NCBI GenBank assembly: GCA_017558115.1
Contig: JAFYWG010000044.1
Span: 1 to 37,971 of the forward strand
From: Alistipes sp.
Lineage (GTDB): Bacteria > Bacteroidota > Bacteroidia > Bacteroidales > Rikenellaceae
Length of the DNA: 37,971 nucleotides
Direction: 5' to 3'
How positions within the stretch are numbered: position 1 is the first letter of the stretch; the number at the start of each line of letters is the position of its first letter. The position numbers and the translations under genes are program-made. The notes under the pieces were generated by a model, which did no database searches, was not told the DNA's origin, and worked only from the letters and a program-made list of their open reading frames with translations. Shown one piece after another: positions 26,751-37,971 of this stretch.

Positions 26751-28325
26751 CTATTTGTGTTTTCTGCCGAATAGTCTGCGTTTTGGGGTATGCTGTTCGT
26801 TGCCGTCGAGGTCGAGGTGCTCGAATCTTTTGCGAGCCTCTCGGTTGCCTCTATCTATCATCCTCTGCAATCGCTCTGCGTCACTCTCGAAGATTGTCGT
26901 CTCGCCAAAGGCATCGGCAAAGCCGTCACCCTCCTCCATGAAGCAACGCTTGGTGGCGTCGTCAATCTCGTGTGTGGGCTCCACAACACTCTTAATGGCC
27001 TCAGCCACATCTTTTGCTATTATGAGGTGCTCGTCGCTGTAGCATAATATGTCGTAACCCACGCGCAATGTAATGGCATTACATGCATCGCCACCGCCCA
27101 TGCGGCACATAATATTCGACGAACTGACACTCTTTAGGATGTCGTTATTATCCACCGCAATGGCGATATTACGACTTACACCGCCCACCTCTATGCTGCG
27201 CGCTCCGAGGCGCTCGCTCATGGCAGCGATAATCTCATTGTAGCGCTCCTCATCCTCACGCTTTATGGTGCTACCATAGCGCACATCGCCCTTCATAATC
27301 GTGGGCAGTGCCTCCTGGGTGTCTGTTGCCAGGCGCCACAGGTGCATCTGGTAGTCGGCGGTCTTGGATGTAGCCATGAGGAATATAAACCAGTGGTTGC
27401 GGCCTGCACCCTCGCTTGCGGTGCGTAGACGCTTTAGGTCATCCATAAAATGTAGCGCCTGAGACTCCACATCCTCCTTTAGGTCGTACTCACCTATGAG
27501 GTTGAGCTTCGCCTTCTGCATGGTGTAGAAGCCAAATGGGTCGTCGGGGTTGGGGGTAAGCTCCTTGGAGACGTAGTTGAAGCCACCCATTGCCGCGAGG
27601 CTAAATGCGAAGTTACCCGTGCCGAGCTCCGTAGTTGCTGAGGGGGCGACGATGGTTACGTCCGAGCCTCGATCTACGCAGCAGCCATACTCCCTATTTA
27701 GTGGGAAGTGGACCACGACAAGCTCGTCGTGCATCTTTGCCTTGCCCTGACGTGTCGAAGCAGTGCTCATAAGGCGCATATCGGGGCAGTTGTTCACCAC
27801 CTTCACGATGTCGTCATCGGTCATGCCCGTCTTCATTATGATGTGTGAGAGTGTGCGGTAGCGAGGCACGCCCTTTAGCGGTATCTTATGTCCGCGCTCG
27901 TTGTATACCCACGATGCCGACTGCACCACACGGCGGAAACGCTTATGCAGAAGCTTGCCATTGCGAACTATCTCTGCGTGCTGCTTGTCTTCAGCCATAG
28001 CGTCGAGCAATCCCGAGCCAATGAGACCTGCGGGCACAGCGAAGATGGCGATGCCGAGGATGCCGACAAGCGTGCCTATGACTTGTCCGAAGATAGTAAC
28101 GGGGGGTGTAACAACATCTGCGGGGTCGTCAACGTACTTAACAACCACCCACACCATAGCATCCCATAGTGTGTAGTCGGGGTTGTTTCTGTACTCCGCA
28201 ATCCAAAGCACTACAGTGAAGCATAGTGTCACGAAGATGAGTATTACCAGCGATGCAAATATCTCGCGTCGCAGTGCCATAAATGCCTCTCTAAAAAGAC
28301 GCAAACTATTAAATAATCTGTGCAT
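26751..28325 (-). CDS. Two-TM channel-like membrane protein with large cytoplasmic domain
   Basis: A 524-residue protein from ATG 28325 (the open frame to 28394 overlaps the promoter). Residues 21-45 form TM1, 53-72 a pore-loop-like segment, and 79-106 TM2 ending FAVPAGLIGSGL, which matches the end of the S6 helix in voltage-gated-like K+ channels (IFALPTGILGSGF). The pore segment reads WVVVKYVDDPADVV, so the TVGYGD selectivity filter is absent. About 400 cytoplasmic residues follow, with no domain I recognise (contains VDRGSDVTIVAPSATTELGTG, SSSNIMCRMGGGDACNAITL) and a basic C-terminus. An ion channel or pore gated by an unknown ligand is inferred; ion selectivity is open. Confidence 0.7.
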   Translation of the reverse strand: MHRLFNSLRLFREAFMALRREIFASLVILIFVTLCFTVVLWIAEYRNNPDYTLWDAMVWVVVKYVDDPADVVTPPVTIFGQVIGTLVGILGIAIFAVPAGLIGSGLLDAMAEDKQHAEIVRNGKLLHKRFRRVVQSASWVYNERGHKIPLKGVPRYRTLSHIIMKTGMTDDDIVKVVNNCPDMRLMSTASTRQGKAKMHDELVVVHFPLNREYGCCVDRGSDVTIVAPSATTELGTGNFAFSLAAMGGFNYVSKELTPNPDDPFGFYTMQKAKLNLIGEYDLKEDVESQALHFMDDLKRLRTASEGAGRNHWFIFLMATSKTADYQMHLWRLATDTQEALPTIMKGDVRYGSTIKREDEERYNEIIAAMSERLGARSIEVGGVSRNIAIAVDNNDILKSVSSSNIMCRMGGGDACNAITLRVGYDILCYSDEHLIIAKDVAEAIKSVVEPTHEIDDATKRCFMEEGDGFADAFGETTIFESDAERLQRMIDRGNREARKRFEHLDLDGNEQHTPKRRLFGRKHK

Positions 28326-28363
28326 AATGATATATAGTTGGGGGTATCCAATCCAAGCAATTG

Positions 28364-28394
28364 CAAAGGTAACGAAAATTACGACAAGTTGCAA
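28364..28394 (-). promoter_or_regulatory. Promoter of the channel-like gene
   Basis: On the minus strand TTG (28392-28394), a 20-nt spacer, then TACCTTTG (28364-28371): good match to the Bacteroidota consensus, 38 nt before ATG 28325. It overlaps the beginning of the transposase remnant. Confidence 0.65.
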
Positions 28395-28559
28395 TACTTG
28401 CTGAGATTGCCGAACGCCACGGTCTTTCCGTTAGCACCGTGCAGCGTAGAGTGCGCCAAATGTGCTCCACGCGAATAGTATCCAAATACAAAGAGGTGGT
28501 CATTCTATTGGGGTAATAGCTTCGGCGTTCTACTCATTGTTGATGCCGACCGCAAGTGA
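28373..28559 (+). pseudogene. Remnant of a DDE transposase (HTH plus start of catalytic domain)
   Basis: The plus-strand frame from 28373 to 28516 reads a helix-turn-helix, LAEIAERHGLSVSTVQRRVR, then KEVVILLG and stop. In the next frame from 28506 the translation continues YWGNSFGVLLIVDADRK to a stop at 28557-28559. Together these match the HTH / VxLMDTTYWGxxxGVLLxxD order of Bacteroidota IS transposases, with a small deletion (about 14 nt) removing the DTT segment and shifting the frame. Both the N-terminal zinc region and the rest of the catalytic domain are absent. It marks the left border of the accessory island and overlaps the 3' end of the DUF262 gene. IS family not assigned. Confidence 0.65.
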
Positions 28560-30905
28560 CGGCTCAGCAATATTTTCCAATAGACGCACAATATACTGGC
28601 CAAGTTCGATGTAGTCTATATCACCACTAAGGTCAGCAAGTTGTACCGTAATCTTTCCGTTCTCTTCTATCATAATGACACGATTATCGCTATTCAACTT
28701 CTCTTGAACGATAGCGCTAATTGAATCATCGCTACATTCTACCTGCCATTTGCCGTGTATGAAATTTATGGTAGTTGCACTCTTCATTTTCAATATTACA
28801 ATAGGACTACAGCCATGATCATCGAGAGAATACTTTTCACTATCCGCAAGACTCTCATTCAACAGATGAGTCATCATCATCCATTCGAGATTATTCTCGC
28901 TATGCTGGCCGCTATTAAGAAGAATGAGATCGAAAGGATAGTCTGTGCGCTTATCCCAAACACCTATGCTATAGGTCGTCTCCCTGGTGGATTGTTTTGG
29001 ATATTTCGCCACATAATATCTCCAATCGTTCTTCTTAAATTTCTCGTACAACCCATCTGTATGCGAGAAATCCTCGGGCTTCTTTTCATCAAGTATTCGC
29101 ACAATAGCGGCTTGATTATTTCTTTTTCCTGTTGCTTTTTTGATATAGAAATCGCTTAATTCCGACGGTCTTGTTATAAAGTAATATTTATAAAGGTTAT
29201 TACTACCTTTTTCATACTGCATATACTCATAGTCATCGCCACTATCGAGTAATGCAATGCGCACACTATCAAAGTGATCAAGATAGTCATTAGAGTATAT
29301 ACTCTCGAACTTAGCAAGTATCTCGCATAGTTTATCTTGATCAATATCTTCTCCACTCTTGCAGTAATCTATAAATAACGACAACGAGCACTGGAGTATA
29401 TTGTGATTCTCGTATCTGAGCAGTTTCTCGTATATTTGTGAGAGCATATGTTGTTTAACATACTCCTCATTCCATACGTTCTGCACAAAGGTGCACTTAC
29501 GCTCTTTATCGTCTATACCATTATGTTCTATAACATATTCTACATCCTTAAGAAAACCGTGCAACTTTTCGATACGGATATCTCGGTCACGGACATTCGC
29601 CGTGATCAAATTGCGGATAATTCTAAGGCTGCGTTTCTTGGAACTATAATCTGCCTCACTCTTTTGCAGCAGATACATTGAGTATAGATATACACGCTCC
29701 GGAATAGTTAATTCTCCCTGCATTGCAAGCTCGAATATAGAGTCGCGTTTCTTGTCCCAGAAAAGTCTAATGGAGTCATCTTTACCAGTCACCTTGCCCT
29801 TATCACCGAAGTAGAAATAATGTTCCCAGAGAGCACCAAAGCTACCGTCATTCGTATATATTTGACGAAGAGTCTCAAATATATCCATAACGCTCTTAAT
29901 GCCTTCTTCATCGCAGAATACGCTTTTGACATTCGGCTCTATTGACTCCTTTCCACCTGGATTACGACGATAGTATTCTATGAGAAAGATATTATGGAAT
30001 AGCATTGAATATCTTGAGTCGGCATCATTAGTAACAGCTAACGGTATGCGCCCGTTGCTGACATCCTTTTCCGTATTACCCCATACTATATCAATCCACT
30101 CGGTGTCTATTTTCTTTGAGAACTCATCCTTCAACTTCTCATCAATACCCTTAATTGCAGCAATCATATCGGACTTGAAAATCTCGAAATCCGTAAGCTT
30201 CTTTCCGCGAGCATTCATTTTGATGAATAGGTCGTCTGTAAGTCCGAAATTTTCGAGCGACAAATTATAGAATTCGACATTGCGCCTCGTAGTTAAACGC
30301 TCCCATAGAGACGGGCTAAGTGACAACACATCAAGCTCAGCACATTTCTCCTCTATCTTTGCAAGTACATTGAGCATCGATTTGATGGTTGGATCGCTAT
30401 CGTATATACTCAAGTACAGAGCATTATCAACTATAAGGTCCTTAATATTTCTATCTGCGGACTTGTATATCTTTAAAAGATTAGGACGTATCTTTTCAAC
30501 AAGATTGCGACAAAACTCTTTTGCCGAATGTCGAGTCTCATAGCTGAACTTTGTAAGCTTATTCACATCCTCCTGATCGATTTGATCGTCAAGCATAGAG
30601 GCGTAGAAATGGAGCAAAAAAAGCGTAGTTAGTCGCTGCTGACCATCGAGGGGAATAAGACCACCCTTTTGATTATTATTCTTTTCGTGGATATCTGACC
30701 CGCCATAGACGAAGTCAAGTACATTGGATGAATCATCTCTAACAGCTGTTATAATGCCAGTTAGCATATCATCCAGGATACTTTGAACCTTCGCCTCTTC
30801 TCTTCCGTAGGCATAGTCACGCTGAACCTTCGGGATTCTGATACTTGCCACTTCGTCAAGCAACTCAAAGAATGTTTTCTTTTGTCCAATATTATCGTTA
30901 ATCAT
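28530..30905 (-). CDS. DUF262 protein, second gene of a DUF262 pair
   Basis: A 791-residue protein with an N-terminal DUF262 (ParB/Srx-like) domain: RIPKVQRDYAYGR at 23-35, IPLDGQQRLTTLFLLHFYA with DGQQR at 87-91, and FIKMNARGKKLTDFEIFKSD near 230-250. In GmrS-type proteins the DGQQR motif serves nucleotide-dependent activity. I find no DUF1524 HNH motif; the C-terminal ~500 residues are unrecognised. The start is preceded by TAGGAGGTG (30911-30919), a perfect Shine-Dalgarno, very unusual in Bacteroidota. It lies 14 bp after the other DUF262 gene, so the two form one operon. The last seven codons overlap the transposase remnant. AT-rich compared with the backbone. Probable anti-phage or restriction role by family only. 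Confidence 0.8.
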   Translation of the reverse strand: MINDNIGQKKTFFELLDEVASIRIPKVQRDYAYGREEAKVQSILDDMLTGIITAVRDDSSNVLDFVYGGSDIHEKNNNQKGGLIPLDGQQRLTTLFLLHFYASMLDDQIDQEDVNKLTKFSYETRHSAKEFCRNLVEKIRPNLLKIYKSADRNIKDLIVDNALYLSIYDSDPTIKSMLNVLAKIEEKCAELDVLSLSPSLWERLTTRRNVEFYNLSLENFGLTDDLFIKMNARGKKLTDFEIFKSDMIAAIKGIDEKLKDEFSKKIDTEWIDIVWGNTEKDVSNGRIPLAVTNDADSRYSMLFHNIFLIEYYRRNPGGKESIEPNVKSVFCDEEGIKSVMDIFETLRQIYTNDGSFGALWEHYFYFGDKGKVTGKDDSIRLFWDKKRDSIFELAMQGELTIPERVYLYSMYLLQKSEADYSSKKRSLRIIRNLITANVRDRDIRIEKLHGFLKDVEYVIEHNGIDDKERKCTFVQNVWNEEYVKQHMLSQIYEKLLRYENHNILQCSLSLFIDYCKSGEDIDQDKLCEILAKFESIYSNDYLDHFDSVRIALLDSGDDYEYMQYEKGSNNLYKYYFITRPSELSDFYIKKATGKRNNQAAIVRILDEKKPEDFSHTDGLYEKFKKNDWRYYVAKYPKQSTRETTYSIGVWDKRTDYPFDLILLNSGQHSENNLEWMMMTHLLNESLADSEKYSLDDHGCSPIVILKMKSATTINFIHGKWQVECSDDSISAIVQEKLNSDNRVIMIEENGKITVQLADLSGDIDYIELGQYIVRLLENIAEPSLAVGINNE

Positions 30906-30910
30906 TTTAT

Positions 30911-30919
30911 CACCTCCTA
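30911..30919 (-). promoter_or_regulatory. Strong Shine-Dalgarno of the second DUF262 gene
   Basis: Minus-strand TAGGAGGTG lies 5 nt before ATG 30905 and is complementary to the canonical 16S 3' end. No other gene in the window has anything similar; Bacteroidota rarely use this signal. It favours an outside origin of the cassette and strong translation of the second gene relative to the first. Confidence 0.75.
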
Positions 30920-32995
30920 TTAGTTTGCCACATTTACCTCATTTTCTGTCGTGATATCGTCCTCTACATTGGGGTCTTTGGTCTCCAAGATTGGCTTCAG
31001 TATCTTTTTGATATTCTCTAGGTAGTTTTTTCTATCTTGTTTACTCCAATAGAAGGACTGTTGTACACTGAAATCGTCACTCTTATTGTTGTAGTACTTC
31101 AAGAATACAAGACGAGTGCAATACGGTATATATTCTCCACGGGCATCATACTCCATTATAAGTTGACGCTTAACCTCAAACACAGAGTTGCTTATTGCCG
31201 TGTTGATACTTCCACTCAGCAAAGCCATATTGGATATGTCGTGCATCTCGGGAGAGCCACCGTTATCCTTAGCCATATCATTAAAATATTTAGTGACTCT
31301 GTCGAAACAACTTATAAAGTCTTTATCAAATGTATATTTACTACTATCAATGCGCTCTTTGTTATCTTTTAATTGCTCTATTATTTTACGCGGGTCGTAG
31401 ATATGGCTCTCATCAAATCTTTTTTCGAGACGCTCCAAAGCATTAATATTAGCATCAATCCACTCTTTCCATTTATCCCTATTGTTACTGTCTATACGCT
31501 CTGAATTCTGTGCGTGAATATGTTCCAATGTCCATTTTCCATTTTTGTACGATTCAAACGGAAAGTTGTCTTGTGCCTGTGCTATACGTGTAGACTCTAC
31601 ATTGAAGAAAAATAGTATGCTCTTTAGTGCCTCTTTCTGCCTATCACCACCATCGTAACTGTATGTATAAATATCATCATCTGGTTTTATCATTATATGT
31701 TTTTTGATGAGCCAATTGATGGTTTGATTAAAACGAGTTTTCGACAGCTTTGTTGACATTTCTAGCAGGTCATTAAGACTGACGTCATTAAGACCGACAG
31801 ATTTATTCTCTGCGATAAGATAACCAATCTTATGGTAGTAGTCGCGGTTATGATACCATGACAGCAAAGTATCAAAACAACTCTCAACTCTTACCCATAA
31901 ATCCCACAAGTCCTTAATATCATCGCATTTTGTGACCATATCATCAAAACGGAGATAGGTATATAGTTCATCTTTCTCCTTTTCATCCTTCTTGGCAATA
32001 AGGTCAAATAGATATTCTATGCGACAACTATAGCCCGCATCTAAACCATCCTTCTTTATGAATGCCCAGAATTTTGGTTGGCGCAACTGCTTCTCAATAA
32101 TATCCCATTTCTCCACGATGTGAGACTGCCTACTGGCTCGTTCTCTTTCTACAACGGTAGAATGATACTTTTCGTCATAACCATTTAGCATCTTCTCATC
32201 ACACGTATACACGGCAGAGTCAGAGAGAAACATTGCGCGTATGAGTTCGGCATTGTTAAGCGATACCTTCCTGTCATTCAGGCGCTTGAAGGTTTCGTTA
32301 GGATCACTATTATCTCGCAATTCATACCATATAACCTGGACAGACTTCGTTTTGTCTGCAGGAGCGTGCGGCGATGTCGTTGTCGTCGGAGCAACTACCT
32401 TCGGCCGGGTAAAATTTTCCTGAAAGGTACCATTGAAGTACTTAAGTCCAACTGCTCTATTTTCACCTTCCTTCAACCACGTTAACACGCACTTTGCGGC
32501 TTGCAATATGTGCCAATGGTCAATGCTAAGGTCTTGTGTGGTATCTACCGAAATTTCATATAATGAGTGTTTAGGTTCATAGATAAATTTATCAAAGATT
32601 TCTCCCAACGTAGGGCGAGTTTGGTATTCTATTGTAAATTTATCATTAAAAAAAAGCGAAATTTTCGCGAATAGCGCAAGGATTATACGTATTGTTGTCA
32701 AACGCTGCTGTCCATCTATCACCTCATACCAACGATTATCGTCAGTATCGGAATGTAGATTATAAAGGTTCTTCTCCTCATCAGAGAGCTCCTTTACGAC
32801 TATAGGCTGAAGACAATAGAAATCACCCTTTCCGTTATGAAAGAAGTTACAAAGGTCGTTCATAAGTTGAGTTACTTGTCGTGTACCCCAGCGATAACCT
32901 CTTTGATAGTCGGGTATAAAGAAGTTCTTATCGTATAAATCCGGTATGGCTTTCAAACTCAGATTGTTCTCATTCAGTTTAATCTCTTTTTCCAT
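30920..32995 (-). CDS. DUF262-DUF1524 fusion (GmrSD/SspE-like), first gene of DUF262 pair
   Basis: A 691-residue protein starting at ATG 32995 (MEKEIKLNENNLSL; the frame is open to 33043). The N-terminal DUF262 domain has FFIPDYQRGYRWG at 25-37, YEVIDGQQRLTTI with DGQQR at 94-98, and FKRLNDRKVSLNNAELIRA. The C-terminal part carries a DUF1524 HNH-like signature: KWTLEHIHAQNSERID near 490, then HDISNMALLSGSINTAISNS and FEVKR near 585-610. This order is that of the type IV restriction enzyme GmrSD and of SspE, which use DUF262 NTP hydrolysis to control an HNH nuclease. Target (modified phage DNA or unmodified DNA) cannot be told. It is followed by a second DUF262 gene, giving a two-component cassette. 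No methyltransferase or Dnd/Ssp gene is visible. Confidence 0.85.
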   Translation of the reverse strand: MEKEIKLNENNLSLKAIPDLYDKNFFIPDYQRGYRWGTRQVTQLMNDLCNFFHNGKGDFYCLQPIVVKELSDEEKNLYNLHSDTDDNRWYEVIDGQQRLTTIRIILALFAKISLFFNDKFTIEYQTRPTLGEIFDKFIYEPKHSLYEISVDTTQDLSIDHWHILQAAKCVLTWLKEGENRAVGLKYFNGTFQENFTRPKVVAPTTTTSPHAPADKTKSVQVIWYELRDNSDPNETFKRLNDRKVSLNNAELIRAMFLSDSAVYTCDEKMLNGYDEKYHSTVVERERASRQSHIVEKWDIIEKQLRQPKFWAFIKKDGLDAGYSCRIEYLFDLIAKKDEKEKDELYTYLRFDDMVTKCDDIKDLWDLWVRVESCFDTLLSWYHNRDYYHKIGYLIAENKSVGLNDVSLNDLLEMSTKLSKTRFNQTINWLIKKHIMIKPDDDIYTYSYDGGDRQKEALKSILFFFNVESTRIAQAQDNFPFESYKNGKWTLEHIHAQNSERIDSNNRDKWKEWIDANINALERLEKRFDESHIYDPRKIIEQLKDNKERIDSSKYTFDKDFISCFDRVTKYFNDMAKDNGGSPEMHDISNMALLSGSINTAISNSVFEVKRQLIMEYDARGEYIPYCTRLVFLKYYNNKSDDFSVQQSFYWSKQDRKNYLENIKKILKPILETKDPNVEDDITTENEVNVAN

Positions 32996-33288
32996 ACTTC
33001 TATATTTTGTTGTAATATTTCTATTAGCACAAAGACAAACCACCTGTCAATGTATTACAAATATAAGCAAAATATTCTTTTGTGCAGGTAAACTCGGTCA
33101 AAAAGTAATAGATGGATCTTAAAAATTGTTGACATTACTGTCTTGAGGATAGACAGAAATCGATTTATATGCGAGTGATTGTGAGAGATCCCGTAGATAA
33201 TTTGGGTAATGAAATGACCCATTGAGTCAAAGTTAAGTTGGTCACAAAATGGTCATGGTCAATGGGTATTTTGACCAATACGCCCGTT

Positions 33289-33345
33289 CTTCTTTTCTGT
33301 ACCCCCCCTCTTCATGGGGGAGCTCGACAGTGCTACTTGCAGTAG
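33289..33345 (+). repeat. Direct repeat unit R1 upstream of recombinase
   Basis: It shares with R2 (33449-33500) the blocks CTTC-TTTTCTGTACCCCC, CTCGAC and TACTTGCAGTA, with a few-base insertion in the middle (CTCTTCATGGGGGAG against TCAGGGG). The two copies are about 160 bp apart. TACTTGCAGTA is itself a short dyad. A candidate recombinase binding or crossover site. Confidence 0.6.
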
Positions 33346-33432
33346 GCAGTCGTGTGCTCATTTAGCTTACACCCTCCCATCCTCCTTGGAAGGGAGGCGT
33401 ATCCAGGGTTCTCGCTCACTGAGGGAGCAAAA

Positions 33433-33475
33433 AAAAGGAAGACCTTTCGATCTTCCTTTTCTGTACCCCCTCAGG
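33433..33475 (-). repeat. Hairpin plus GTACCCCCTCAGG, left copy
   Basis: Hairpin AAAAGGAAGA-cctttcga-TCTTCCTTTT (33433-33460), then CT and the 13-mer GTACCCCCTCAGG (33463-33475). On the minus strand it reads CGAGCCCCTGAGGGGGTAC followed by a hairpin and eight T. That is what the 3' end of a tRNA gene followed by its intrinsic terminator looks like, though no tRNA body is present. The same arrangement recurs at 35195-35243. Confidence 0.6.
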
Positions 33476-33536
33476 GGCTCGACTGCGTTACTTGCAGTAA
33501 TAACCCCATAATGGGGATATAATACTAACAACTAAT

Positions 33537-33689
33537 ATGTTAAGTATTGAAAGATGCAAAGAGATATTAAAAGAAGAGGGAATGAAATTAGATGATAATC
33601 AGATAAAAGAGGTTAGAGAATTTTTATATATCATCGCCAATATTGAAACTAAAATTAAAAATAATAAATACGAAACCGAGAATAATTAA
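33537..33689 (+). CDS. 50-residue protein upstream of the serine recombinase
   Basis: ATG 33537 to TAA 33687-33689 encodes MLSIERCKEILKEEGMKLDD, then NQIKEVREFLYIIANIETKI and a Lys/Asn-rich tail. It is predicted helical and contains no known domain. It ends 2 bp before the recombinase ATG, so it is surely co-transcribed and probably translationally coupled. It lies just after a TATAAT box (33518-33523) and a CCCCAT/ATGGGG dyad. The tight coupling suggests a recombinase accessory factor, regulator or directionality protein, but that is inference. I recall small proteins starting MLSIxxCKxIL before recombinases in other Bacteroidota. Confidence 0.75.
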   Translation: MLSIERCKEILKEEGMKLDDNQIKEVREFLYIIANIETKIKNNKYETENN

Positions 33690-33691
33690 AT

Positions 33692-35458
33692 ATGGATATT
33701 AAGAATGTAATTTTGTATTGCCGTGTATCAACGGCAGAGCAAGAGAAGGGAAGTTCTCTTGATTGGCAGGAGGACTATCTCCGCCGTTACTGTGAAATGA
33801 AGCGATATAATGTTGTAGCAGTCTACAAAGAGGATAAGTCTGCTAAATCAGGGTTTAAGAAGCGAAATGAATTTCAGGCGCTTATGAAGTATTGCAAGGA
33901 GCATAAGCACGAGATTGATTATGTATTAGTATATCGTTGGGATAGATACTCACGCAATCTTAAAGAAGCTCTCATCAACCTTGATTATTTTGAGAAGATA
34001 GGTATCGAGGTTAATAGTGTGGAGCAGCATATTGATTTTAATGCCGCAGACTATATTACGATGCTTTCTCTGTATATATCAATGGCACAGAGCGAGGATA
34101 CAAAGATTTCAAGGCGCACTAAGGAGGGCATCCACGCATCCTTGGAGAAAGGTAAATGCACTTGTAAGGCGCCACGAGGCTATATCAATAAGCAGATAGA
34201 TGATAATAATAAATATGTTGCTATTGACGAAACAAAAGCCCCTATAATCAGAGAAATGTTCAGAGAGGTAGCCAAGGGGGTATATACTCCCTGTTATGTT
34301 CAAAGGATGTTTGCTCGAAGAGGACATTATATACACAAGAACTCCTTTATGAAGATGCTACGAAATAGATTCTATGTAGGTGATGTCTTTGTGCCTGAGT
34401 ATAGAGATGAGAAGATTGGAACGATTCCCGCACACTATGTAAAGGGACAACACGAGCCGCTTATTGACAAGGATACATTTGAGAGTGTCCAAGCGATTGT
34501 CGATAAGCGACATCGCCCTAAATTGACCAAACGCCTACATCCTGATATATTCCTCCGACAATACTTGAAGTGTCCACAGTGTGGTGCTACAATGACGGGA
34601 AGCGCAAGTAAAGGCAATGGAGGCAGATATTACTATTATCATTGTAACCGTGATGCAAAACATCTACGATGCCGTGCAGATAAGGCAAATGACCTGTTTG
34701 CACGATACATAGCCACACTGAAGCCTAATTATGCCATCTTGAGGCTATACAATGAGGTACTCAGAGATATCAACACAGAGGGTAGGATAGTTACAATGAG
34801 TCAGATTGCCAAGATAGAGGAAGAGATAATGTCGCACGAGGCACGACTATCAGCTGTTACTAACAAATTTCTTGATGGTGAGATAGACTCAAGTACCTAC
34901 AATGAACTAAAACATCGTGTCGAGTTAGAGAAGAAGGCGTGTATGAGTAAGTTAGATTTACTCAAAACCCCTAAGGGTGCTGATTTAGAACCACAATTCG
35001 ACTATGCTATATCCTTGATAAACAATATGGAAAGCCATATAAGAGAGGGTGCATTGGAGGCTAAGAGGGAATTGATTGGTGTGATGTTCCCTGAGAAATT
35101 TGATTTTGATGGAGAAACATATCGAACCAATACTTACAACAAGGTACTCGATGTAATATACCTACAAACCAATGAGTTACGGGGACAAAAGAAAAGAGAC
35201 TCTTCAGATTTCTCTGAAAAGTCTCTCGAGGTACCCCCTCAGGTTGGTCGTTCAACCCGCTCTGACGGCACTGTGTGCGGGATTTCGCACATACACTATC
35301 GTCGTTCTTCGAGCGTTTTGTCTACTATGTTGACATTGAACAACTTGCGGGTTTTAGAACGAAAACCTATCTGTCTATCTCTTCTTTTTTCTGCTACAAA
35401 GGTACAATTATTATTTTATTCAAACAAAGCATCCATGTCAATCTTTGCTATTATCTGA
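33692..35458 (+). CDS. Large serine recombinase
   Basis: A 588-codon frame. N-terminal resolvase domain: VILYCRVSTAEQEKGSSLDW with nucleophile S13, VLVYRWDRYSRNLKEA, and ISMAQSEDTKISRRTKEG (residues 1-150). Recombinase domain follows (KAPRGYIN ... VYTPCYVQRMFARRGHYI), then zinc ribbon LKCPQCGATM ... YYHCNRDAKHLRC near 290-330, and a coiled coil (MSQIAKIEEEIMSHEARL). It integrates or excises mobile DNA by site-specific recombination. After about residue 495 (LRGQKKRD) the frame runs through a terminator hairpin and the GTACCCCCTCAGG repeat and overlaps the convergent ATPase gene by 43 bp, so the last ~90 residues look like readthrough of an insertion junction rather than original protein. Confidence 0.92.
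   Translation: MDIKNVILYCRVSTAEQEKGSSLDWQEDYLRRYCEMKRYNVVAVYKEDKSAKSGFKKRNEFQALMKYCKEHKHEIDYVLVYRWDRYSRNLKEALINLDYFEKIGIEVNSVEQHIDFNAADYITMLSLYISMAQSEDTKISRRTKEGIHASLEKGKCTCKAPRGYINKQIDDNNKYVAIDETKAPIIREMFREVAKGVYTPCYVQRMFARRGHYIHKNSFMKMLRNRFYVGDVFVPEYRDEKIGTIPAHYVKGQHEPLIDKDTFESVQAIVDKRHRPKLTKRLHPDIFLRQYLKCPQCGATMTGSASKGNGGRYYYYHCNRDAKHLRCRADKANDLFARYIATLKPNYAILRLYNEVLRDINTEGRIVTMSQIAKIEEEIMSHEARLSAVTNKFLDGEIDSSTYNELKHRVELEKKACMSKLDLLKTPKGADLEPQFDYAISLINNMESHIREGALEAKRELIGVMFPEKFDFDGETYRTNTYNKVLDVIYLQTNELRGQKKRDSSDFSEKSLEVPPQVGRSTRSDGTVCGISHIHYRRSSSVLSTMLTLNNLRVLERKPICLSLLFSATKVQLLFYSNKASMSIFAII
35195..35243 (-). repeat. Hairpin plus GTACCCCCTCAGG, right copy
   Basis: A 12-of-13-bp stem from AGAGACT (35195) to AGTCTCT (35226) with a TTTC loop, followed by CGAG and GTACCCCCTCAGG (35231-35243). 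On the minus strand the hairpin is followed by a T-rich tail TTTTCTTTTG. It is the same arrangement, in the same orientation, as 33433-33475, and the two bracket the recombinase and its small partner. Next to it GTTGG-tcgttc-aacc forms a further small dyad. Confidence 0.6.
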
Positions 35459-36840
35459 TCGCTATACATACCGTTCTTCATTCCAAAAGTAGTAATCATT
35501 GTAGGGATAATACTACTTCTCGTTCCCGTAATCTCCTTAAACGCATTGATACGATTCTGTATTTTGAGGTATTCCTCTTTATCGAGGCTATACAAATCCT
35601 CGCAATACTTGACCTCGCAAAGATTGATGGTATTATCCGCACGGTCGATGACTATATCGATTTGCGCACCGTTCTCAACTTGATTAGTTTTCCAAGTGTA
35701 GAATTCGGTTGACACACTTGCGATACCCAACGCTGCTTTGATCTGTGGAATATGAGCTTTGCAGATGCGCTCAAAGGCAAGACCGTACCAAGCTGTAATT
35801 TCTGGTGTATTCACATTGCGAGTCCAGAAATGCTCCTCTACGATATTCTTGCTGGCAAATGTATTATAGAATATAGTGTAGAAGTCAACCAGCTGATATA
35901 TAGCTGAATTTGCTTTTACTTTCTTATCTCGCACATTATATTTGCGTAAGAAGTCGCAATAGACAAGGTCAGTAAGCATTTCGCCTAACTTACCATTATT
36001 TGATGTGCCAAGTTTAGTGCTAATCTCCTCCCTTGTAAGTCCCTTTGGATGTTTTGCAAGCAGAGAGATGATTTCGAGATATGGTTGTGGATTCTTAAAC
36101 AAAGAAGAGAACAATCTTCGATACTCCTTCTTCAACTCAGCGTTGCCACTAAAAAATAACCTATCAAGGCCCGTTGCAGGGCTATCAGTCTTTTCAAATT
36201 GACTCATATAGTATGGCACACCGCCAATAGCCATATATGCCTGGATGATGCTGAGGCGATTCCACACAAATCCACTATTAGCAAAGAACTCTTCTGTTTC
36301 GCCTAGAGTAAATGGGTGTAGGTGCATTTCGTGAGTAATACGGTCGTGGAGACCTCCGTGATTATCTATGACATTGCGTACCATCCATGATGTTGCAGAG
36401 CCACAAACAATCAACATAATCTCTGACTGCCAATTTGCCCAATTGTTCCAGAAATGTCCAAGTGCATTTACGAAGCCAGCCTTTTGAGTATCGAGGCAAG
36501 GTAATTCGTCAATGAAAATTACACATCTTTTTCCTGGCTCAATCTTCGATTCAAGAAGTTGGCGAAGAGCAAAGAATGCATCAATCCAGTTTTGATTCTT
36601 CTTTCCCTTGTACCCATATGTTTTAAGTGCTGTATGGAAAGCGGTCATCTGTTCAGATTTGCTACCTTCCATCACGCCAGTCATATCAAAGGCAAACTGA
36701 TTCTTGAAATGCTGACGGATAAGATAAGTTTTACCAACTCGTCTTCGACCATACACTGCAATAAATTCAGCCTTGCCAGAATTGTAGTATTGGTCAATCT
36801 GTGCTAACTCCTTTTTTCTGCCAACTATAATCTGTTCCAT
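35416..36840 (-). CDS. AAA ATPase with C-terminal DUF234/PD-(D/E)XK-like domain
   Basis: A 474-residue protein of the archaeal-type ATPase group common in Bacteroidota. Walker A is VYGRRRVGKTYLIRQHF (K37), Walker B RCVIFIDELPCLD near 105, and a sensor region LIVCGSATSWMVRNVID. A winged-helix segment (HPKGLTREEISTKLGTSNNG) follows near 265-290. The C-terminal DUF234-like domain holds GAQIDIVIDRADNTINLCEV and KYC, a D...E-x-K arrangement of the PD-(D/E)XK nuclease fold. Role unproven: such proteins have been linked to mobile elements and host-element conflict. A 20-bp perfect inverted repeat sits just upstream. The 3' end overlaps the recombinase frame by 43 bp. Confidence 0.88.
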   Translation of the reverse strand: MEQIIVGRKKELAQIDQYYNSGKAEFIAVYGRRRVGKTYLIRQHFKNQFAFDMTGVMEGSKSEQMTAFHTALKTYGYKGKKNQNWIDAFFALRQLLESKIEPGKRCVIFIDELPCLDTQKAGFVNALGHFWNNWANWQSEIMLIVCGSATSWMVRNVIDNHGGLHDRITHEMHLHPFTLGETEEFFANSGFVWNRLSIIQAYMAIGGVPYYMSQFEKTDSPATGLDRLFFSGNAELKKEYRRLFSSLFKNPQPYLEIISLLAKHPKGLTREEISTKLGTSNNGKLGEMLTDLVYCDFLRKYNVRDKKVKANSAIYQLVDFYTIFYNTFASKNIVEEHFWTRNVNTPEITAWYGLAFERICKAHIPQIKAALGIASVSTEFYTWKTNQVENGAQIDIVIDRADNTINLCEVKYCEDLYSLDKEEYLKIQNRINAFKEITGTRSSIIPTMITTFGMKNGMYSDQIIAKIDMDALFE

Positions 36841-36864
36841 ACGAAGTGTTTTTTATTCTGAACG

Positions 36865-36872
36865 CAAATTTA
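36865..36872 (-). promoter_or_regulatory. -7 box of the ATPase-nuclease gene
   Basis: TAAATTTG on the minus strand, 24 nt before ATG 36840. Matches TAnnTTTG; no good -33 box, because the upstream sequence is the large inverted repeat 36894-36946. Confidence 0.45.
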
Positions 36873-36893
36873 GTGAAATTTTCTCGAAAAACA

Positions 36894-36946
36894 GCCGATA
36901 CTCTGCGAAAGTTGCGTTTTTTTTCAAACTTTCGCAGAGTATCGGC
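36894..36946. repeat. 20-bp perfect inverted repeat upstream of the ATPase-nuclease
   Basis: GCCGATACTCTGCGAAAGTT (36894-36913) and its exact reverse complement (36927-36946) are separated by 13 nt containing eight T. The 20-bp stem could extrude as a cruciform or form a very stable RNA hairpin. It covers the -33 region of the gene's promoter, so it may be an operator, a transcription barrier or the recognition site of the ATPase-nuclease. Confidence 0.85.
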
Positions 36947-37044
36947 ACTATTTGTATTATCATCGTATTTAAGGGAACATAATAAAAGTTGTTTACTATT
37001 ATACCTACTTTATGACTTCATTGCCATCAGCAGGGAATGATGAT

Positions 37045-37971
37045 CTACTCCATCACAATAGCGAAGGTTACTCGGCCTTCATCGTTGTGCTTTAGGCGCA
37101 ATGTGCCGCCGTGGAGACGGATGATTTGGCGAGAGACAGCAAGGCCGATACCAGAGCCGTCGGCTTTGGTGGTGAAGAATGGTGTGAAGATATTTTCCGC
37201 TACCTCGGCAGGAATGGCAGAGCCATTGTTTGTAATCTCAATCTGGATGCGCTCCTCGGCATCGATGGTCGAGTGGATGGTGATTTTGCGCTCGCCCTCC
37301 TGCTCCGAGAGTGCTTCGGTGGCATTTTTGAGCAGATTAACTACTACCTGCGACATCAGCGCACGGTCGGCATAGAGCATCGTATCTTCGGGCTCGATAG
37401 ACACCTCTACCTCCACACCCTCACGAGCCGTAAGCAAGCAAGCCTCTGCCACCAACTCCGAGAGGTAGAAGGGTGCTTTCTGCGGTGCTGGGATGCGTGT
37501 TACGGCACGGAACGAATCGACAAAGCGAAGCAGGCGATCCGAGGTCGTATGTATCGTTTCAAGTCCCTGCTGCATCGTCGCAGCATCGGCATTTGCCGAG
37601 AGCAGCGTATGGCTAATCGATGTTACGGGGGCGAGCGAGTTCATAATCTCGTGCGTGAGGATGCGAGTCAGCTTCTCCCACGACTCCACCTCCTTGCGGT
37701 CGAGTTCCTCGTGGATGTTGCCCACCGATATAACACGCAACATCTTACCGCCGAACTCCATCGCCGAGCAACTCAGCACAAGGCTCTGCTCGCCAATCTC
37801 TGTGGCATAACGCACGGTGCGCTGCTCGTTAGGTGCTACGCTGTGCATCGCCTCGCATAGCTCCTCGCTCAGCACTCGCAGTTGGTCAATGTGGCTTAGT
37901 CGCTCCATACCCACGATGCGGAGGACTTTGCTATTTGTCTGAGCCACAGTACCGTTCTCCATCACCACGAC
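37045..37971 (-). CDS. NtrB-like sensor histidine kinase (5' part outside window)
   Basis: The frame stays open to the right edge, so the N-terminus is missing. The visible ~308 residues hold part of a PAS-like sensor (VVMENGTVAQTNSKVLRIVG ... LVLSCSAMEFGGKMLRVISV), the HisKA helix with phospho-acceptor His in KLTRILTHEIMNSLAPVTSI, and a complete HATPase_c domain: N box LMSQVVVNLLKNATEALSEQ, F box NIFTPFFTTKADGSGIGLAV, G box GGTLRLKHN. The HEIMNSLAP dimerisation motif is that of kinases paired with NtrC-type sigma-54 activators. The partner regulator is presumably beyond the window. Marks resumption of chromosomal backbone after the island. Confidence 0.92.
   Translation of the reverse strand, partial: VVVMENGTVAQTNSKVLRIVGMERLSHIDQLRVLSEELCEAMHSVAPNEQRTVRYATEIGEQSLVLSCSAMEFGGKMLRVISVGNIHEELDRKEVESWEKLTRILTHEIMNSLAPVTSISHTLLSANADAATMQQGLETIHTTSDRLLRFVDSFRAVTRIPAPQKAPFYLSELVAEACLLTAREGVEVEVSIEPEDTMLYADRALMSQVVVNLLKNATEALSEQEGERKITIHSTIDAEERIQIEITNNGSAIPAEVAENIFTPFFTTKADGSGIGLAVSRQIIRLHGGTLRLKHNDEGRVTFAIVME

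Follow-up and report, generated by a model that had tools for sequence, protein, structure and literature searches.

Two systems made of paired DUF262 proteins have been described in Vibrio cholerae. GrwAB, reported in 2025 as a two-protein system of West African-South American V. cholerae, consists of GrwA, a DUF262-DUF1524 protein, and GrwB, in which DUF262 is followed by domains of unknown function; the report describes both proteins as required and lists as needed for activity the DGQQR arginines R81 of GrwA and R86 of GrwB and the nuclease residues H431, N521, and N530 of GrwA (PMC12137116). In the same account, GrwAB blocks all tested Queuovirinae (7-deazaguanine) and Tevenvirinae (sugar-hydroxymethylcytosine) as well as some Markadamsvirinae, and phages that escape it have changes in the DNA-modifying enzyme DpdA (PMC12137116). 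TgvAB of V. cholerae VPI-2 is described as two adjacent DUF262 genes, one with DUF1524, that are likewise both required (PMC11411939). A 2025 review states that GrwB and TgvA differ, that the two-protein action still needs study, and that the way in which modified DNA is recognised by GmrSD-like enzymes is not yet understood (PMC12409362). Among the papers listed in a literature search, GrwAB is named in PMC12137116 and PMC12409362. Here, we analyse two adjacent DUF262 genes, A and B, of Alistipes sp. on contig JAFYWG010000044.1; the whole stretch of 37,971 nucleotides is referred to as the window, and positions are those of the window unless a locus is named. Because of the layout, gene order, and intact motifs of the pair, its constant pairing, and the joint inheritance of its two genes, we judge it probable that the pair encodes a GrwAB-type two-protein modification-dependent (type IV) restriction system; it is most likely a further, apparently intact member of a kind that is already published and not a new one.

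Results

The gene pair has the layout, order, and motifs of GrwAB

Both open reading frames lie on the minus strand in one apparent operon. Gene A (30920..32995) is GrwA-like and encodes 691 amino acids from its ATG, comprising DUF262, a middle part, and a His-Me (DUF1524-type) nuclease, while gene B (28530..30905) is GrwB-like and encodes 791 amino acids, comprising DUF262 and a long rear part without a Pfam family; GrwAB has the same order, with a DUF262-DUF1524 gene followed by a gene for DUF262 and a long uncharacterised part. The DUF262 (GmrSD_N, PF03235) domains span residues 21-256 of A (32228..32935, minus strand; Pfam, E 1.7e-30) and residues 14-246 of B (30168..30866, minus strand; E 1.2e-23). 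As in GrwAB, both proteins contain the motifs QR, DGQQR, and FxxxN (Q31R32, D94-R98, and F236-N240 in A; Q28R29, D87-R91, and F227-N231 in B). The nucleotide-binding DGQQR motif is invariant in 25/25 A proteins (32702..32716 in the window, minus strand) and in 26/26 B proteins (30633..30647, minus strand), and all 38 aligned A proteins and all 39 aligned B proteins retain three pocket residues, namely the QR Arg, the DGQQR Arg, and the FxxxN Asn. The earlier note, made from the sequence of the window, had described a two-gene DUF262 cassette with 14 bp between the genes, QR and DGQQR signatures in both, a DUF1524 end in the first protein only, and an AT-rich setting. Each of these observations holds: PF07510 (DUF1524) is found in A alone, weakly (25.1 bits at a cut-off of 23), and the GC content is 0.387 in A and 0.397 in B versus 0.525 in window 1-28394. 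Between the stop of A and the start of B, an AGGAGG (30913..30918, minus strand) is likely the ribosome-binding site of B; scans for promoters and terminators returned chance-level matches only, and no Rfam family was found in 28000-37971.

GmrSD_C is matched at E 0.1 or better by 21 of 25 A proteins. We predict H492 (31520..31522, minus strand) to be the catalytic His, which would make it the counterpart of GrwA H431, and N589 and N598 (31202..31231, minus strand) to be nuclease residues; the latter are 9 apart, as are N521 and N530 of GrwA. In the window, all three residues and the DGQQR boxes of both genes are intact. The His and the two Asn are present in 38/38 aligned A proteins, with the His assignment doubtful in loci L034 and L035 because there it lies only 17 and 34 residues, respectively, before the first Asn, versus 64-128 in the other A proteins, and may be misaligned. 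Searched against the PDB, the A profile matched SspE chains and a 596-amino-acid DUF262 chain (9jfl_B 5.7e-17, 6jiv_D 6.1e-16). The window pair differs from GrwAB in its host, a member of the Bacteroidales versus V. cholerae, and in the length of A, most relatives of which have 547-644 amino acids.

A and B are constant partners

A search of species genomes with B gave five loci, with identities of 52-60% over the best segment in four. Among related genomes, 12/200 matched (own genome included), ten with true B genes and two (G138 and G186) with DUF262 resemblances only. Plasmid records gave 19 matches in 72,556, and A-B pairs were found on plasmids of Bacillota, Bacteroidota, Campylobacterota, Pseudomonadota, Actinomycetota, and Spirochaetota. 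An alignment query of IMG/VR returned 18 loci, 13 with the pair, while L062 and L064-L067 are DUF262 resemblances or TgvAB-like; single-sequence searches of IMG/VR with A and with an E. coli B found no relatives, although alignment queries did. The DNA of one IMG/VR pair (L058) matched 28/5426 E. coli genomes, seven over at least 80% of the query, while the L029 pair had no match in E. coli and B had none in 50,697 phage records. An intact E. coli pair (L157 9982-14245) lies near tRNA genes and yecA.

Pairing was scored with profiles in 58 loci, from which L064-L067 had been left out and in which L046-L048 and L062 hold no B. A lies directly upstream of B on the same strand in 52 of the 54 B-holding loci, window included; in L029 and L078, A is fragmented. 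The two deviating loci are L158 (8155-10677), from an E. coli strain in which B is annotated without A and has two insertion-sequence genes upstream, and L170, in which B ends at a contig edge. As B was the entry point to most of these loci (those on plasmids were retrieved at A matches that also hold B, and L078 through A), the set leans towards B-bearing loci. A reverse check of 395 genomes of the class with both profiles gave 12 B places in 11 genomes and A matches in 76 genomes, the latter mostly covering the DUF262 end of the profile alone; all ten near full-length A places (E ~1e-85 or better) adjoin a B place, an eleventh pair (G327:C149) is divergent, and the twelfth B place is a contig-end case. 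The earlier note had held that its two-component idea would weaken if the genes did not occur together in other genomes; they do.

The rear part of B is the fastest-changing part of the system

B extends for ~545 residues beyond DUF262 without a Pfam family. Past about residue 246, a Pfam search at E 0.1 gave one sub-threshold DUF5499 match (0.076), and the remaining matches among 26 B proteins, none of them shared by more than two members (best E 0.014), point to no convincing family. PHROGs gave no match to the window B protein, the PDB gave nothing meaningful with the B sequence alone, and the B profile matched PDB entries in its DUF262 part only, apart from one weak unrelated match. Thus, the C-terminus, which the earlier note had called unrecognised, belongs to no convincing family in Pfam or PHROGs; assignment to a known unrelated family was the other outcome that, according to that note, would weaken its two-component idea. 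In the alignment of 26 B proteins, K484 is the sole invariant column beyond residue 270, and W275, D296, R428, N432, E481, and E499 are nearly invariant.

Over 435 comparisons among 30 pairs, mean pairwise identity is 42.5% and 42.2% for the DUF262 parts of A and B, 29.9% for the middle and 31.8% for the nuclease end of A, and 18.8% for the middle and 17.5% for the rear of B. Because the middle and rear of B diverge fastest, the rear half of B (residues 276-791; 28533..30080, minus strand) is the natural candidate for the DNA-reading part, and we propose that it acts in sensing or specificity. Between L028 and L161, identities of 52% in A, 58% in the DUF262 part of B, and 25% in its rear hinted at a mosaic. 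By single linkage, the rear halves fall into groups of 36 (including the window), six, and two, plus five singletons. Beyond its four close kin, the window connects to the group of 36 through a single BLAST link (L055) and a profile match (window and four close kin versus 22 others of the group; hhalign probability 96.7%, E 4.5e-10). We also considered an exchange of the rear half of B between lineages and dropped it: trees of A, the front of B, and the rear of B for 15 loci are not proof, as L028 and L038 group with support in both B trees (92 and 100) while several backbone nodes of the A tree reach 31-62 only. Fast change, not a swap, is the result we keep.

The distances among A proteins and among B proteins are correlated, with r 0.925 over 34 pairs, a value not reached in any of 2000 permutations (maximum 0.354), and r 0.877 over 30 pairs without the four closest relatives (L005-L008, which were also left out of the identity figures). 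Truncated or divergent loci (L060, L052, L030, L063, and L078) were left out of both the identity and correlation figures and L076 of the identity figures, while L029 contributes no A sequence, its A being split.

Comparison of the pair with TgvAB, GmrSD/BrxU, and SspE

TgvAB resembles the window pair in having two adjacent DUF262 genes, one with DUF1524, and differs from it in the rear half of the DUF1524-less partner, which is unlike that of B (hhalign probability 0.1 against four TgvA-like proteins). These four proteins have 434-492 amino acids and are encoded ahead of the nuclease gene; the one that was scanned, from the same genome as the window, carries DUF7834, a domain absent among the hits of the 26 B proteins. 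Moreover, TgvAB is described as embedded in a type I restriction-modification (RM) operon (PMC11411939), whereas a scan of the pair and three flanking proteins gave no hsd-type match. With a B rear half that is not TgvA-like and no hsd-type match in the proteins scanned, the window pair does not fit TgvAB. The same genome also contains a TgvAB-like pair (G000:C43, L049 8632-12053), in which a 492-amino-acid DUF262+DUF7834 protein precedes a 644-amino-acid DUF262+DUF1524 protein.

A shares its arrangement of DUF262, helical linker, and His-Me nuclease with GmrSD and BrxU, which are described as mostly one protein, without a B partner (PMC4619093, PMC10952713). SspE has DUF262 with DGQQR and DUF1524, as does A (PMC10952713; PDB 6jiv by profile); by the published description, it reads phosphorothioate and belongs to SspABCD-SspE, again without a B partner (PMC10952713).

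Surroundings of the pair in the window and elsewhere

The Pfam scan covered five window proteins and the PADLOC scan four. Pfam identifies a serine recombinase at 33692-35458, which bears out one half of the earlier statement that a recombinase and transposase debris lie nearby; the other half is not borne out, as the only transposase-named match is a sub-cut-off match of the recombinase to IS607, and two stretches suspected to be debris have no second copy in the own genome (84.9% complete). Likewise, the statement that no known defence genes are linked has to be amended: the AAA ATPase gene at 35416-36840 (minus strand) is a near full-length match to the PADLOC candidate defence model PDC-S27 (1e-187), while no phosphorothioation gene was found among the five proteins scanned, a search that did not extend to the remaining window genes or to the genome beyond the window.

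By eye, the short stretch 28395-28515 (plus strand) resembles a helix-turn-helix fragment; it is perhaps the debris meant in the earlier note and has no other copy in the genome. The intergenic stretch 33361-33482 has a 92% copy elsewhere in the genome (G000:C3:10862-10981). A 27-nucleotide inverted repeat (36887-36953, 89% complementary) lies between the ATPase and histidine kinase genes. On this right flank, the match to the loci of seven relatives ends at 37045-37047, or at 37061 in one; the inverted repeat, close to the end of similarity at 37045, is possibly the edge of the island. In the relative G035, both flank genes are present on different contigs.

In L007 (3-18365), L006 (1-12859), and L169 (85-14001), the pair lies between a type IIG-like methyltransferase, only the end of which is included in L006, and a DruE-like helicase; a UvrD-type helicase follows the latter in L006 and L007, and L007 also has a SIR2 gene. 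This setting, which parallels TgvAB inside its type I RM operon, is present in 3/54 loci, a lower bound because flanks are short; in the literature searched, DUF262 and Druantia occur together in one review. In 5/54 loci, an RNase_T-family 3'-5' exonuclease adjoins the pair, before A or after B (L033 5525-6004, L035 5445-5936, L044 10519-10953, L055 9201-9677, at ~290 bp from the pair, and L161 5003-5467), and is possibly a third subunit. WYL-domain proteins are near the pair in 11 loci, ten found by query and L032 by annotation. Exonuclease and WYL queries had no match in the window.

Discussion

Our results support a model whereby A and B, encoded by one apparent operon, would act together, most likely as a complex. 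In this model, B would be the main reader and, through its variable rear half and probably with the DUF262 domain of A, would sense foreign DNA carrying modified bases. Both DUF262 domains would bind and hydrolyse nucleotide in their DGQQR pockets, and this would license the His-Me nuclease of A to cut the modified DNA. The two-component modification-sensing nuclease proposed in the earlier note is supported in kind, as a predicted activity, and the published accounts of GrwAB and TgvAB each describe a need for both genes (PMC12137116, PMC11411939).

Several points weigh against placing the pair with GrwAB. Membership is assigned from layout, order, and motifs, with the V. cholerae proteins compared by published description only, and the exact residue numbers of GrwA (81, 431, 521, 530) are found in none of 38 A proteins. 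The PF07510 score of A is barely above the cut-off, and a recognisable reading domain is not seen in the rear half of B. PADLOC, in a 2023 version that predates GrwAB, has only partial matches for the two genes, chiefly over the DUF262 side, with its models for HEC-06, Orf5, and SspE. Finally, the correlation of A and B distances is a sign of joint inheritance, not of contact.

If GrwAB were a structural cousin only, the pair could be a working system whose target is not a modified phage base but, for instance, a backbone mark such as phosphorothioate, which SspE reads, or RNA. The match of the A profile to SspE chains and the 596-amino-acid chain would fit this idea, as would the variability of the rear of B, which is such that specificity could differ widely, and the methyltransferase beside the pair in three relatives; we nevertheless consider it unlikely, given that the five window proteins scanned include no phosphorothioation gene and that layout, order, and motifs fit GrwAB, for which a phage range has been published (PMC12137116). 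We give still less credence to the idea that A works by itself as an ordinary single-chain enzyme of the GmrSD/BrxU kind, next to a B that is unrelated to it or has decayed. In favour of this idea, the complete DUF262-DUF1524 layout is present within A, one E. coli strain examined has B without an annotated A, and among the E. coli matches listed 13/20 begin near the end of A and cover B but little of A. The constancy of the partner B, in 52/54 loci and at 10/10 strong A places in the 395 genomes, argues against the single-chain type, as do the pocket residues of B itself, kept in 39/39 proteins, and the reported need of GrwAB for both genes (PMC12137116). It seems just as improbable that the pair works by abortive infection or in the manner of a toxin, with B keeping the nuclease of A in check until the cell is infected, an arrangement to which a two-gene layout with a nuclease would be suited and with which the report that GrwAB-protected cultures still reach moderate-to-severe lysis with filamentous cells would agree (PMC12137116).

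Returning to a GrwAB-type system, we tentatively speculate, short of favouring the idea, that these pairs are modular type IV systems in which B is the specificity subunit, such that every lineage recognises a DNA modification of its own and some lineages add a 3'-5' exonuclease or place the pair in a methyltransferase-helicase defence operon. A conserved engine (DUF262 parts ~42% each, A nuclease 32%) might be driven by a rapidly diverging, possibly exchangeable reader (B middle and rear ~18%), with B in a role like that of HsdS in type I enzymes, and a pair within a methyltransferase-helicase operon might let one island meet both plain and modified phage DNA.

Plasmids from six phyla, as well as related genomes, thus carry GrwAB-type pairs. 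With approximately 50 natural variants that have unlike rear halves, it would be possible to test directly where in a two-protein type IV enzyme the DNA modification is read.
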